Shown piece by piece: positions 44,476 to 48,192 of a stretch of DNA of 64,000 nt; within the stretch, counting starts at the first letter, position 1, and each line of letters opens with the position of its first letter. Below the pieces are notes generated by a model, which saw only the letters and a list, made by a program, of their open reading frames with translations, ran no database searches and was not told the origin of the DNA. Origin of the DNA: Actinomyces lilanjuaniae (GTDB taxonomy: Bacteria > Actinomycetota > Actinomycetes > Actinomycetales > Actinomycetaceae); contig NZ_CP032514.1 in NCBI RefSeq assembly GCF_003606385.1, positions 620,001-684,000 of the forward strand. The letters run 5' to 3'. Position numbers and translations under genes: made by a program.

Positions 44476-44826
44476 GCTGGTGGTCCCGGTTGCTGTGTGG
44501 CTGTGGAGGGCGGGGTTGTGGAGGCTGGCACACAGGCAGGGTAGTCGGTGGGTGTGACAGCAATCGGGGCGGTGACCTGAGGACGCTGCCGTCCGCTGTA
44601 CTCGGCTGCCGCCGTCCTGCCGTAGTACGGACCGCCGGGGTCCGGAGGTGGCAGCCGGGGTCCGTCAGACGACAGAGTGCGCCCCCAACTTTATTTGGGT
44701 CTGATATTGATGAATGTTAGCTCTGTGCCTGTGGTTGTTGCGGTGGGTTCTGACGAGTGTTATCGTAACGATACAACCGGAACAAGCCGGTTGTTTTAGT
44801 CTCTGCTGTGGAAGGAGTGCAGACCG
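44476..44826. other. divergent region upstream of radA and the five-gene membrane locus
   Basis: A 351-bp gene-free stretch. Its right half is visibly richer in A and T than the surroundings (ACTTTATTTGGGTCTGATAT near 44690) and leads to two palindromes and the AAGGAG of the 88-aa gene. The left half, upstream of radA, shows nothing distinctive. Confidence 0.5.
44761..44792 (+). promoter_or_regulatory. paired palindromes (likely operator) before the 88-aa gene
   Basis: TATCGTAACGATA (44761-44773) is a perfect palindrome around a central A. AACCGG (44775-44780) and CCGGTT (44787-44792) form a second perfect inverted repeat with a 6-nt spacer immediately beside it. They lie 35-66 bp before the ATG, where a promoter should be, so a repressor site is likely. 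No regulator gene is adjacent. Confidence 0.55.
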
Positions 44827-45093
44827 ATGACCTCATCCTCACTGTTGTACAGTCCCGTGCCTAGCCCCATCCTGCTGACGTCTCCTGTGGTCACGCGAGC
44901 CCGTTCCCGTTTTGATCAGGCTATCGTGCGTCACGACGGGTGGTTTCTTGTGGTCGTTGCCGTGATCCTTGCGCTTGGTGCCACTCTCCTGGCGGGAATG
45001 GCGGTCTGGTGCGTCGTCAACCAGCATGGGGCCTTCACCGGCAGGTGGGCCTGGAAGGACGGGCTCGAGGTTTATGTCGAGTGCAGTCGCTGA
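44827..45093 (+). CDS. 88-aa single-pass membrane peptide
   Basis: The protein has a polar N-terminus (SSSLLYSPVPSPILL), a basic stretch (RARSRFDQAIVRH), one transmembrane helix (~39-66, FLVVVAVILALGATLLAGMAVWCV) and a 21-residue tail (GAFTGRWAWKDGLEVY then VECSR) with two aromatic W residues. AAGGAGTG precedes the ATG. It opens a five-gene unit with ABC-transporter and HEXXH-protein genes, so it could be a peptide precursor or a small transporter subunit. No known family is recognised. The next gene's likely start overlaps its end. Confidence 0.6.
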   Translation: MTSSSLLYSPVPSPILLTSPVVTRARSRFDQAIVRHDGWFLVVVAVILALGATLLAGMAVWCVVNQHGAFTGRWAWKDGLEVYVECSR

Positions 45094-45902
45094 CTGTGCC
45101 TCACTCGGGTAAGCGCGCCTTCTCTGTCCCTGCTCCTGTTCCTGGGAGCGGGGCGGAGTGGGCGCGTCAGGGGACGGTTGTCGATGTTCAGAACCTGACC
45201 TTCTCCTATAAAAGGACCCCGGTGCTTCTCAGGGTGTCGTTCAACGTCTACCCGGGTGACTTTGTTGCCATGATCGGCCCCAACGGCTCGGGGAAGTCGA
45301 CGCTGTGCCGGGTCCTGCGCGGTATCGTCCCCACTCCTGCGGCCGCACGCGTGGAGGTCGGAGGCGAGCCTGCCGGGTCAGCTCCGGCCCTGCGCATGAC
45401 CTGCTACACCGCCGATAACGACCACGTGCCCCGGTTTCTCAGCGCCCAGGAGTACGTCCGGTTCCTGGCACGGCTCCACTCGGCACCAGGGCGCCGGATC
45501 AGGTTTGACCCGGCTGCCGTTGACAGCCTGTTCGCCACGCTGGGGATGGGGGGCCGGACCCGCGAGCTCATGAGCGGCTACTCCCACGGCATGGTGAAGA
45601 AGACCCAGCTGGCTGCGGCCCTGCTGGTCAGCCGCCCCGTCACGGTCGTAGACGAGACCATGAACGGCATCGACATCGAGGCGCAGTACCGTATCGAGGG
45701 GATGCTGCGTGACTACTGCGCTGCCGGGGGCGCGGTCATCATGTGCAGCCACGACTTCTCCATGCTGCAGCGCTGCGCCAACCGGGTCATCATGCTTGAC
45801 GAGGGCTATATCGTCGAGGACGCCTATACCGAGTCGCTAGCTCGGCAGTCCACGAGCATTGAGGCCCTGGTCACCAGCTACCTAGGGGTCGGTGGTGGCT
45901 AG
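45081..45902 (+). CDS. ABC transporter ATP-binding protein
   Basis: A single nucleotide-binding domain: VVDVQNLTFSYKRTPVL, Walker A GPNGSGKST (~66), a signature region SGYSHGMVKKTQLAAALL (LSGGQ-type, degenerate first residues) and Walker B with VTVVDETMNGID, where Pro is replaced (DET instead of DEP). The H-loop is CSHDF. This resembles exporters of the ABC-2/peptide type. The start is uncertain: GTG 45081 overlaps the preceding gene, GTG 45096 is just after it. Its partner permease follows with an 11-bp overlap. Confidence 0.85.
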   Translation: MQSLTVPHSGKRAFSVPAPVPGSGAEWARQGTVVDVQNLTFSYKRTPVLLRVSFNVYPGDFVAMIGPNGSGKSTLCRVLRGIVPTPAAARVEVGGEPAGSAPALRMTCYTADNDHVPRFLSAQEYVRFLARLHSAPGRRIRFDPAAVDSLFATLGMGGRTRELMSGYSHGMVKKTQLAAALLVSRPVTVVDETMNGIDIEAQYRIEGMLRDYCAAGGAVIMCSHDFSMLQRCANRVIMLDEGYIVEDAYTESLARQSTSIEALVTSYLGVGGG

Positions 45903-47352
45903 AGGCGCGGTCCTGGAGAGGCCGGCACGCCTGGTGCAGGTGCTCCGCCTCCTCGCCCTCTACATCGTGCGGGTGGTGGTCTCCCGCGGGATTCTTGCCT
46001 CCCGGACGGTGCGTCGCGTCCTGGTCCTGTGCGTCACGGTGACAGGCCTGCTCATGGGCTCCCTGTCCTACCTCTTCCTGCGTCAGTCCGGTGATGACGC
46101 GCAGGTTGCGGTCTTCGTCTTTCGGCTGATGGCTGGATCGGCCCTCCTCTGGGCGCTGCTGTCGGTCCTGGTTGTCCGCGTGCTCGTCCAGGGGTCTCCG
46201 GAGATGATGGCGACGACGACCCTGCTTCCGGTCACCGCCCGGGAGCGCCAGCACGCGGTCAACGTCCTGGAGGCGGTGCTGGCCGCCTGTGTCAGTGCCG
46301 CCGCCCTGTCCTCCTTCACCACCGGGGCGGTTCTGGCCTACGGGGCGCCAGTCATGGCCGAGGTCCTTGCCTGCGTCGTCCTGCCCTGCCTGAGTGCGCT
46401 CACCGTCCTGCTCATCCTGTGCCGCCTGGCGGACCTGGCCATGGCTGTGGTCGGTATAGGAGGGATGAGGGCGAATATCATTGTTCTTGCGCTCATGCTG
46501 GTTGTGGTGCGGTCCTGGGGGTGGCTAGCGGACTACACCAGGCGCGTCAGCGCCTCTGCCCTGGACGGCGGGGAGGAGCCCTTCACGCTGTGGCCGCTGG
46601 TCTTTCACGACCTGCTGACGGTGCACGGTGTGCCAGCCCTCCTGCTCGCTGCCGTGGTGGCCACCATGACTGGGGCGGTGCTGATCCTCCTGGTCCCCGC
46701 GCCGCCGGTGCCCGTGAGGCCGCGCTACTACGCCCTGCGCCTTCCCGGCAGGCTGGTGGCCCTGGCGCCGTCGTTCTCCTACCACCTGGCCCAGGCGGCC
46801 CGCAGCAGGTTTGTCGTGGACAACCTGATGATCTCTGGGACGGCGGCGGTTCTCATTCTTGCCCTGCGGGCGCCGATCAGCTCCGTGTGGGCGCTTGAGC
46901 CCGTGGTGATGGGAGGCTTCTTCCACTACGCCAGCGTGAACCCGGGGCTCTTGGTCTTCCTCCCCCGCCAGAATACTGTCTGGCTGTACGCGCAGATGGT
47001 CGGGGCACAGGTCGTCATCGTGCTGCCCTTTATCGTTGGTGCCCTGCTCCTGGACGCGATGGCGGGAGTAATAACGCCGCAGGCCTCAGCCATTGCCTGC
47101 GCCAGCGTGATCTCCTCCGCGGTGGTGACGGTCTCGGTCGGCTCGATCATGCCGGCCCACGACGACAACCCGGTCTCGGTCCTCCTGGGCACGGCGATTA
47201 TCGGTGTCATCCTGCTGCTGGCCGCCCTGATGCTGGGAATTGTCCAGCTCCCGGTAGTTGTCAATATCTCCGCAGCTATCGTTGGCTGGATTGCTGTAGC
47301 GGCTATAGGCGTCGCAGGAATCAGTTACAATAGAAAGGTGTCTCACTCATGA
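45892..47352 (+). CDS. ABC transporter membrane protein
   Basis: A 486-aa protein with about 12 hydrophobic segments. The GTG start overlaps the ATPase stop and the gene ends in an ATGA overlap with the next gene, so it is almost certainly the permease of this transporter. No signature of a named family was recognised; the loop GSPEMMATTTLLPVTARERQHAVNV between helices 3 and 4 resembles the coupling region of ABC-2-type exporters ('LL.lP.t..e...'). Export of a peptide or lipid is plausible from context only. Confidence 0.75.
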   Translation: MVARGAVLERPARLVQVLRLLALYIVRVVVSRGILASRTVRRVLVLCVTVTGLLMGSLSYLFLRQSGDDAQVAVFVFRLMAGSALLWALLSVLVVRVLVQGSPEMMATTTLLPVTARERQHAVNVLEAVLAACVSAAALSSFTTGAVLAYGAPVMAEVLACVVLPCLSALTVLLILCRLADLAMAVVGIGGMRANIIVLALMLVVVRSWGWLADYTRRVSASALDGGEEPFTLWPLVFHDLLTVHGVPALLLAAVVATMTGAVLILLVPAPPVPVRPRYYALRLPGRLVALAPSFSYHLAQAARSRFVVDNLMISGTAAVLILALRAPISSVWALEPVVMGGFFHYASVNPGLLVFLPRQNTVWLYAQMVGAQVVIVLPFIVGALLLDAMAGVITPQASAIACASVISSAVVTVSVGSIMPAHDDNPVSVLLGTAIIGVILLLAALMLGIVQLPVVVNISAAIVGWIAVAAIGVAGISYNRKVSHS

Positions 47353-47675
47353 GGATCATGATGAGGGTCCTGCTCTCCGCCATGACGGGTCTTGTGGGGA
47401 CGCTGGCCCTGGCGGTCTTCTCCATTCTCTCCATTATGTTCCAGACCACGGAGGAGGAGGCGTACAGGACTGCCCTCTTTGGCTCTGTCTTCTTTCGCTC
47501 TGAATTGCTGGATAACGGAAATATTGGGGCGTCTGCGGGGATTCGCTCTTTTGCGCCTCTTGGTGTGATATGGGCGGTAATATTTGTCTTCTGTCTCCTC
47601 GTCTTCGTGATCTACGACAGGTTGAAGGCTCGGCGGAGGGAGCTCCTTGAGCAGCAGGACAACACCCTGGGCTGA
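47349..47675 (+). CDS. small two-helix membrane protein
   Basis: A 108-aa protein with two transmembrane helices (LLSAMTGLVGTLALAVFSIL near the N-terminus; LGVIWAVIFVFCLLVFVIY, ~72-90), an outside loop between them and a basic/acidic cytosolic tail (DRLKARRRELLEQQ). Its ATG overlaps the permease stop as ATGA. Position suggests an accessory transporter or immunity-type subunit; no family is recognised. Base composition falls slightly in the loop-encoding part. Confidence 0.65.
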   Translation: MRIMMRVLLSAMTGLVGTLALAVFSILSIMFQTTEEEAYRTALFGSVFFRSELLDNGNIGASAGIRSFAPLGVIWAVIFVFCLLVFVIYDRLKARRRELLEQQDNTLG

Positions 47676-48192
47676 TATTGCGGACCTGTCGTTCCGCCCG
47701 GTTGTGCGGCTGGTGGTGCGTGTCGGGGCAGTGCCTGCGGCCGTGGTGCTTCCTGCTCTGTGCTTCCAGCTGGCAGTGGAGTGGGGCTCGGGCTCCTACG
47801 GGGGGTCACTGCTGTTCGTCCACCTTCTGGTCGTGGTTGTCGCAGGGCTGGCTGGCTCCTACAGCCTCCATGAGGTGGCTCATCTCCTGGCCGCACGCCG
47901 CTGGTACCCGGCGGGGACGCAGGCCGCTTGGCAGTTGACCGTCCTGCGCGTGTCGCTGCTGACCCGGGGCGTGCCTCCTGTGCGGGGTGCGCGTGCCCTG
48001 GTCGCGGCGGCTGGCCCGCTGTCCTGTGTGGTACTGGGCGCGGTCATGGCCGTGGTGAGCGCGCCGACGTGGCTGTGGGCGTGGTACCTGTGCCACGGGG
48101 TCTTCCTGCTGCCGGTATTCGGTGATGGGATCACGGTGTGGAGGTACCTGTGGAGGCACTGCGTGCGCCGCTCCGGGGAGCCGGGAGACTAG
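47647..48192 (+). CDS. HEXXH membrane protein (M50-like putative metalloprotease)
   Basis: A 181-aa protein with four or five hydrophobic segments. Helix 3 ends in SLHEVAHLLAARRWYPAG, an HEXXH zinc site (H75, H79), and a later segment reads RALVAAAGPLSCVVLGAVM, like the GP-containing helix of site-2 (M50) proteases. The third ligand may be the D of VFGDGITVWRY, in the place of the usual DG. The TTG at 47647 overlaps the upstream gene; a downstream start near the first conserved helix is possible. It closes the five-gene locus and could process the 88-aa peptide; this is inference. Confidence 0.65.
   Translation: MSSRTTPWADIADLSFRPVVRLVVRVGAVPAAVVLPALCFQLAVEWGSGSYGGSLLFVHLLVVVVAGLAGSYSLHEVAHLLAARRWYPAGTQAAWQLTVLRVSLLTRGVPPVRGARALVAAAGPLSCVVLGAVMAVVSAPTWLWAWYLCHGVFLLPVFGDGITVWRYLWRHCVRRSGEPGD

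Follow-up and report, generated by a model that had tools for sequence, protein, structure and literature searches.

We analysed a 64,000-nucleotide stretch of Actinomyces lilanjuaniae DNA (contig NZ_CP032514.1, positions 620,001 to 684,000 of the forward strand; "the window"), and within it a block of five tightly packed genes on the + strand at window positions 44827-48192. The host genome is 3.02 Mb and consists of a single contig. All five reading frames were confirmed to be open, and with the starts chosen here adjacent genes overlap by 4-29 bases; the unit is flanked by radA-like and transketolase-like genes on the opposite strand, both named by eye. We read the block as a gene cluster for the biosynthesis of a TMcin, one of a group of membrane-spanning antibacterial peptides that form large pores in rival bacteria (PMC12328743, PMC13252029). 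The genes and the features discussed below are as follows:

44827-45093, + strand: tmcA homologue, 88-residue putative TMcin precursor, ATG start, one transmembrane helix at about W39-W61, Cys62 and Cys86.
44938-45090, + strand: predicted mature peptide, residues 38-88 of the precursor, 51 residues, about 5.56 kDa when oxidised, with the published cysteine numbering transferred.
45081-45902, + strand: tmcB homologue, ATP-binding cassette (ABC) ATPase, GTG start overlapping the tmcA stop.
45892-47352, + strand: tmcC homologue, membrane permease of 486 residues, GTG start.
47349-47675, + strand: tmcE homologue, two-helix membrane protein of 108 residues, an escort protein in the published system.
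47647-48192, + strand: tmcP homologue, membrane metalloprotease of the site-2 protease (S2P) type, 181 residues, TTG start.
47869-47883, + strand: HEVAH, TmcP residues 75-79, with H, E and H invariant in 34 of 34 homologues.
48106-48129, + strand: LLPVFGDG, TmcP residues 154-161, with P and D identical in all 34 homologues and Asp160 the predicted third zinc ligand.

The tmcB start at 45081 is our choice, the mechanical open reading frame (ORF) beginning at 44940, and GGAAGGAG precedes the tmcA ATG. An initial annotation, made from the DNA letters, had already placed an 88-residue single-pass peptide at the head of the unit and HEVAH at residues 75-79 of its last protein, and both observations, the residue numbering included, agree with the frames given above.

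Family scans named little in this block. Above cut-off, a Pfam scan of the five proteins identified only the ABC ATPase (PF00005, E 8e-16), while an NCBIfam scan returned nothing above cut-off (for the ATPase, among the best 25 of 190 matches). The peptide and the permease matched no named family in either scan, and the small membrane protein none above cut-off; TMcin-type genes are an example of genes that escape annotation. An anti-phage system was also considered and rejected, as a PADLOC scan of seven proteins matched only the ATPase (eight ATPase-type models).

TMcins were originally described in Nature Communications in 2025 (PMC12328743), and their biosynthesis in a 2026 preprint (PMC13252029). 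One half of the peptide is a transmembrane helix, and the peptide oligomerises into beta-barrel pores (PMC12328743, PMC13252029). The gene set comprises tmcA for the single-helix precursor, in which two cysteines are universal, tmcB for an ATPase, tmcC for a 12-helix permease of the single-chain type V, tmcE for a two-helix escort protein and tmcP for an S2P-clan protease with an HExxH motif (PMC12328743, PMC13252029). To our knowledge, TMcins have been characterised from one S. aureus strain (PMC12328743, PMC13252029); tmcA, tmcB, tmcP, tmcD and tmcE mutants of S. aureus were studied, while tmcC was modelled and a mutant of it is not known to us (PMC13252029). Homologues are reported from Bacillota and Actinomycetota in three gene arrangements (PMC12328743).

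To relate the unit to this system, actinobacterial profiles were compared with the cluster on the S. epidermidis plasmid pHOB2, and all five counterparts were recovered from 90 ORFs, with E-values of 2e-22 for the peptide, 1.5e-70 for the ATPase, 2e-68 for the permease, 3e-24 for the small protein and 2e-17 for the protease. For the window's own peptide and ATPase the comparison was made by pairwise identity (40% over 84 residues against pHOB2 TmcA; 31% over 216 residues against staphylococcal TmcB), and for tmcC, tmcE and tmcP it was made by profile. Because the five actinobacterial profiles recover the pHOB2 genes, and because a Roseburia plasmid also carries all five, we file the locus as a TMcin cluster. 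With a probability of roughly 0.93, the unit is a TMcin biosynthetic gene cluster of the order tmcA-B-C-E-P that acts by the mechanism outlined below. The initial annotation had seen here a candidate for an undescribed peptide-processing or immunity system, made of proteins without a nameable family. The combination of peptide, membrane HEXXH protease and ABC pair bears out peptide processing, and an immunity role is a tentative idea taken up below; the claim of novelty falls, since the genes match the published TMcin cluster (PMC12328743, PMC13252029). The locus is an additional member of a recently described family, and the system was first published in August 2025.

Compared in turn with the TMcin-G1905 cluster of S. 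aureus (plasmid pCT545), the window unit shares the five core genes, a precursor that has one helix, two Trp and two Cys, an S2P-type protease with HExxH and a distal Asp/Pro, a two-helix TmcE and an ABC exporter. Differences were found in arrangement and accessory genes. The window order is A-B-C-E-P, whereas that of staphylococcal pHOB2 is B-C-E-P-A; the core operon has also been described as tmcB-tmcA (PMC13252029). Unlike the staphylococcal clusters, the window unit has no regulator pair and no linked DsbA gene, tmcD, among its five genes; the latter is not a defining gene, since the preprint gives tmcD as missing outside staphylococci (PMC13252029).

The peptide was examined in an alignment of 121 sequences, namely the window peptide and the 120 listed of 151 database matches. 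Six residues, R35, D37, W39, C62, F70 and G72, are invariant in 121/121 sequences, W61 is present in 120 and C86 in 119. The chain ends one or two residues past the last Cys in 118 of the 121 peptides, and the tail that follows WC is 26 residues long in 105 of 120 (one of the 121 being left out). In contrast, the N-terminal 27 or so residues vary in both sequence and length, the stretch that precedes the RYDAW-like motif measuring 10 to 99 residues. This pattern of conservation indicates a variable leader, then a conserved helix, then a loop bounded by two cysteines, and the window peptide thereby carries the TMcin hallmarks of a single transmembrane helix between two conserved Trp (W39, W61) and two conserved cysteines after it (C62, C86). 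A start at G38 would put the cysteines at positions 25 and 49 of the mature peptide, which approximates the published C25 and C50 of TMcin-G1905 and is the basis for the predicted product of 51 residues and about 5.56 kDa; by this analogy the start is predicted to within a residue or two. The distance from Cys to Cys is 24 residues in the window peptide and 25 in TMcin-G1905. One property of the window peptide departs from its family: the net charge of its tail is 0, against a family mean of +2.9. This would suit a homologous but repurposed unit, in which the peptide serves as a membrane signal or pheromone that is cut by the S2P-type protease and exported by the ABC pair, in the manner of Eep with EcsAB/PptAB. 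Against such repurposing, residues in common with the staphylococcal precursor (W39, W61, C62, C86 and FTG) are retained.

The protease supports assignment to the same system. The structure model of TmcP is confident (mean predicted local distance difference test score, pLDDT, 92.9), and fold matches ranked 1 to 7 were all site-2 proteases; the modelled protein shares its fold with MjS2P (3b4r), SpoIVFB (8vjl) and RseP (7w6x), and the layout of its zinc motifs also resembles that of MjS2P. The DG of LLPVFGDG aligns with the same region of 3b4r, although this match is weak (E 0.068). An HEXXH that varies among relatives would, by the initial annotation, have counted against its reading; HExxH and the distal Asp/Pro, as in an S2P-type TMcin protease, were instead found in all 34 homologues. 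In comparison with MjS2P, SpoIVFB and RseP, these are short forms (172-181 residues), which leaves no room for an additional PDZ or CBS domain. The closest named relatives of the window protease are in Actinomyces sp. 2119 and A. wuliandei. PF11667 (DUF3267), the Pfam family given for TMcin proteases, was not listed as a match for the window protein; nine of 35 relatives match it (best 1.6e-4), and Roseburia TmcP scores 25.2 bits against a cut-off of 27.1.

For the remaining membrane proteins, TmcE aligned with its staphylococcal counterpart over 80 columns (hhalign probability 98.7%), so that both profile and hhalign comparisons identify the two-helix tmcE product of TMcin clusters, for which an escort function is presumed by analogy. 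The tmcBC genes encode an ABC transporter homologous to the staphylococcal pair. The TmcC model is confident and helical, but its fold matches, to a mycobacterial efflux pump and to NosY, are weak; Foldseek gave no match at E 0.001 or below. A Pfam scan of 29 permease homologues (E 0.05) returned only two DUF families, and none of them matched EcsB, which we take to be the Pfam family name of the EcsAB/PptAB permease, at E ≤0.05, a threshold that still leaves room for distant kinship. Within that limit the result counts against a signal-exporting transporter of the Eep/EcsAB kind. In that pathway, which includes RseP as well as Eep, an S2P-type protease likewise acts ahead of an ABC transporter that exports a membrane-derived peptide; its protease, transporter and substrate genes are not known to lie in one operon, and no TmcE is known in it. 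The substrates of Eep with EcsAB/PptAB are described as lipoprotein signal peptides, and in S. aureus a putative S2P protease and an ABC exporter process peptide signals, according to one report (PMC7157817), which speaks for a repurposed unit.

We then asked whether the five genes are conserved as a unit. A permease search of 213 genomes of the family yielded nine carriers, our own genome included, and the stretches around the other eight all hold the ATPase, whereas the peptide, the small protein and the protease were each found in six. Beyond the genus, permease identity drops to 22-26%; the peptide is better conserved, at 35-51% in the six loci where it was found. As a query on its own, the permease matched nothing in genome contigs and, among proteins, only two close relatives (91% and 88% identical). 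The productive query was the peptide alignment. Its profile matched 151 proteins in a database of 5.8 billion sequences, where scoring covered the 7,997 candidates that shared most words, and 35 loci in genome contigs. Relatives of the cluster occur in Streptomyces, Cutibacterium, Glycomyces, Arthrobacter, Kocuria and other genera. Iterated profiles were then run over 44 loci, which after removal of five duplicates left 39 distinct ones (8 found via the permease, 30 via the peptide, and the window itself), and in 31 of these 39, window included, all five genes are present in identical order and on the same strand. Among the other eight, three reach contig ends (L017, L033 and L047, the last of which is possibly the front that L035, of the same assembly, is missing), one has no detectable small protein (L016), and four are partial or rearranged (L010, L011, L028 and L039).

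Co-occurrence was also beyond chance. Among the 213 family genomes, strong peptide matches were found in 8, strong permease matches in 9 and both in 8 (Fisher p ~1e-13); among 393 further genomes of the class the peptide, the permease and both were found in the same number, 3 (Fisher p ~1e-7), these tests ignoring kinship between genomes. Weak partial matches were dropped beforehand (in the family, 9 of 17 for the peptide and 2 of 11 for the permease, E 3.7e-4 to 9.8e-4; in the class, 1 of 5 for the permease, E 4e-4), and in the class, scoring was confined in each genome to the top 13 first-look candidates for the peptide and the top 4 for the permease. A small-protein profile found 8 of the 213 family genomes, namely seven permease carriers and a lone copy in G181, and missed G136 and G182, which hold other cluster genes. 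These data confirm that the five genes form one unit, as first proposed; the possibility raised with that proposal, that relatives would carry the genes unlinked, applies to a few broken clusters and not to the family overall.

Neighbouring genes were compared with ORFs of at least 60 residues outside the unit (E 1e-15), after an initial all-against-all search had been swamped by antisense ORFs within it. Three other genera are the most in which any flanking gene recurs, and the genes that reach this number encode ABC ATPases belonging to a different transporter. A pearlin-type scaffold peptide (with the M50 protease TglG) was rejected on this ground, as no modifying gene recurs beside the unit. 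Nor does a regulator or receptor gene stand beside it in more than three other genera, and with this we regard the repurposed signalling unit as very improbable. The same survey bears on an epipeptide system. The yydFGHIJ or epeXEPAB locus of B. subtilis has a comparable mix of small peptide, intramembrane M50 protease and ABC pair, EpeP being such a protease (PMC10885120), and a YydF/EpeX-like system whose epimerase is unlinked would look much like the window unit. However, epipeptide systems have a radical SAM epimerase; the window unit has none and no room for one, and none was found among recurring neighbours, although the genome was not searched for one. Moreover, the YydF product is 17 residues long (PMC7026026), whereas the conserved part here is a helix with a loop of about 26 residues. 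The likeness to YydF/YydH/YydIJ drawn in the initial annotation is thus sound as to layout, as is its remark that the unit lacks a radical SAM enzyme, but it does not make the unit an epipeptide system, a reading to which we give almost no credence beside that of a TMcin cluster.

The mechanism we propose for the TMcin cluster is carried over from the published S. aureus system. TmcA would be made as a membrane-inserted precursor and held by TmcE. TmcP, a site-2-type metalloprotease aided by TmcE, would cut near the beginning of the helix, at a site predicted to lie before G38, and release a leader of some 37 residues. A disulfide between C62 and C86 would close the C-terminal loop, probably through oxidoreductases encoded elsewhere on the chromosome. 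TmcBC would then extract the mature peptide of about 51 residues from the membrane and export it, and the exported peptide may insert and oligomerise into beta-barrel pores in competing Gram-positive bacteria, with antibacterial activity as the expected outcome. Away from the unit, the genome does hold genes for a VKOR (E 5.5e-29) and for DsbA-like thioredoxin proteins (E 1.4e-14), whose products, judged by sequence, could form the disulfide without a local tmcD. This fits the remark in the preprint that other organisms may rely on distant oxidoreductases (PMC13252029).

Broken clusters in relatives bear on whether the window cluster is in use. In a congener (G050) whose shared blocks are 92-93% identical in DNA to the window, two separate stretches have been replaced, so that nearly all of tmcA and all of tmcP are lost and tmcE ends at residue 70. 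Its tmcB and tmcC are still open, and their ratios of nonsynonymous to synonymous substitution rates (dN/dS) between the two genomes are 0.18 and 0.28, compared with 0.17 for radA and 0.475 for the transketolase frame, a value suspected to be inflated by an over-long frame. In C. porci, tmcP remains only as an N-terminal part; in Kocuria sp. 36, tmcA and tmcP are retained while the ATPase is split and the permease short. Decay therefore happens in this family, and the window cluster could itself be a TMcin cluster by descent that has degenerated into an unused remnant, which would contest its function and not its identity. A scan found no sigma-70-like promoter (0.3 expected by chance), again in line with disuse, but the scan is ill-suited to this organism. 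Against this, the five frames are open with catalytic and cysteine residues intact, and tmcB and tmcC have low dN/dS against the close relative; we consider a remnant improbable and a working TMcin cluster the better account.

Self-immunity to TMcins lies, by its own statement, outside the scope of the preprint (PMC13252029), and naturally broken clusters offer a way into the question it leaves. We entertain, as a tentative and rather unlikely idea, that TmcBC, perhaps with TmcE, doubles as a self-immunity module, so that strains that have lost the bacteriocin keep an orphan resistance cassette; the tmcBC pair of G050 and the lone tmcE-like gene of G181 would be cases of this kind. An orphan transporter was seen in one of the 12 permease carriers of both surveys, which is thin support for such a role, and decay explains it equally well; the mixed pattern of C. 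porci and Kocuria sp. 36 favours neither. What is new here is at most these natural partial losses. The cluster and its relatives also show, across the family, which residues and genes have been retained.

Further observations concern individual loci. In G050, three other frames are open where tmcP is lost (L010:4579-6298), and one of them has an Amidase_6 domain. In G047 (L075), genes that look transposase-like by eye stand between tmcA and the other four, and the two parts lie on opposite strands. The lone tmcE-like gene of G181 (L124:7563-7895, E 3e-11) has no other cluster gene within 15.5 kb. A plasmid of Roseburia sp. 831b carries its TMcin cluster (L079:7959-16192) in the order A-E-P ... 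B-C; genes for a cysteine desulfurase and an IS110 transposase separate the two parts. The gene overlapping tmcP encodes a protein in which two stretches resemble thioredoxin and one region, below the Pfam cut-off, weakly resembles DsbD, possibly a local disulfide machinery outside staphylococci. On a Peribacillus muralis plasmid (L126:5965-8675), a TmcA-like peptide is encoded beside an ABC ATPase and a membrane protein whose likeness to TmcC is only weak (E 8e-4); within 12 kb neither tmcE nor tmcP has a match below E 0.1. The peptide was not found in the phage collection searched; a complete five-gene cluster (L080:2802-6095) is present on a 53-kb IMG/VR "viral" contig, whose flanking genes, by eye, suggest an integrative element more than a phage. 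Finally, 32 bases upstream of tmcA in the window, a perfect 8-bp inverted repeat (ACAACCGG/CCGGTTGT) followed by a short T run occupies positions 44773-44794; it is terminator-like or attenuator-like, but the scan gave three such sites where 2.2 are expected by chance.

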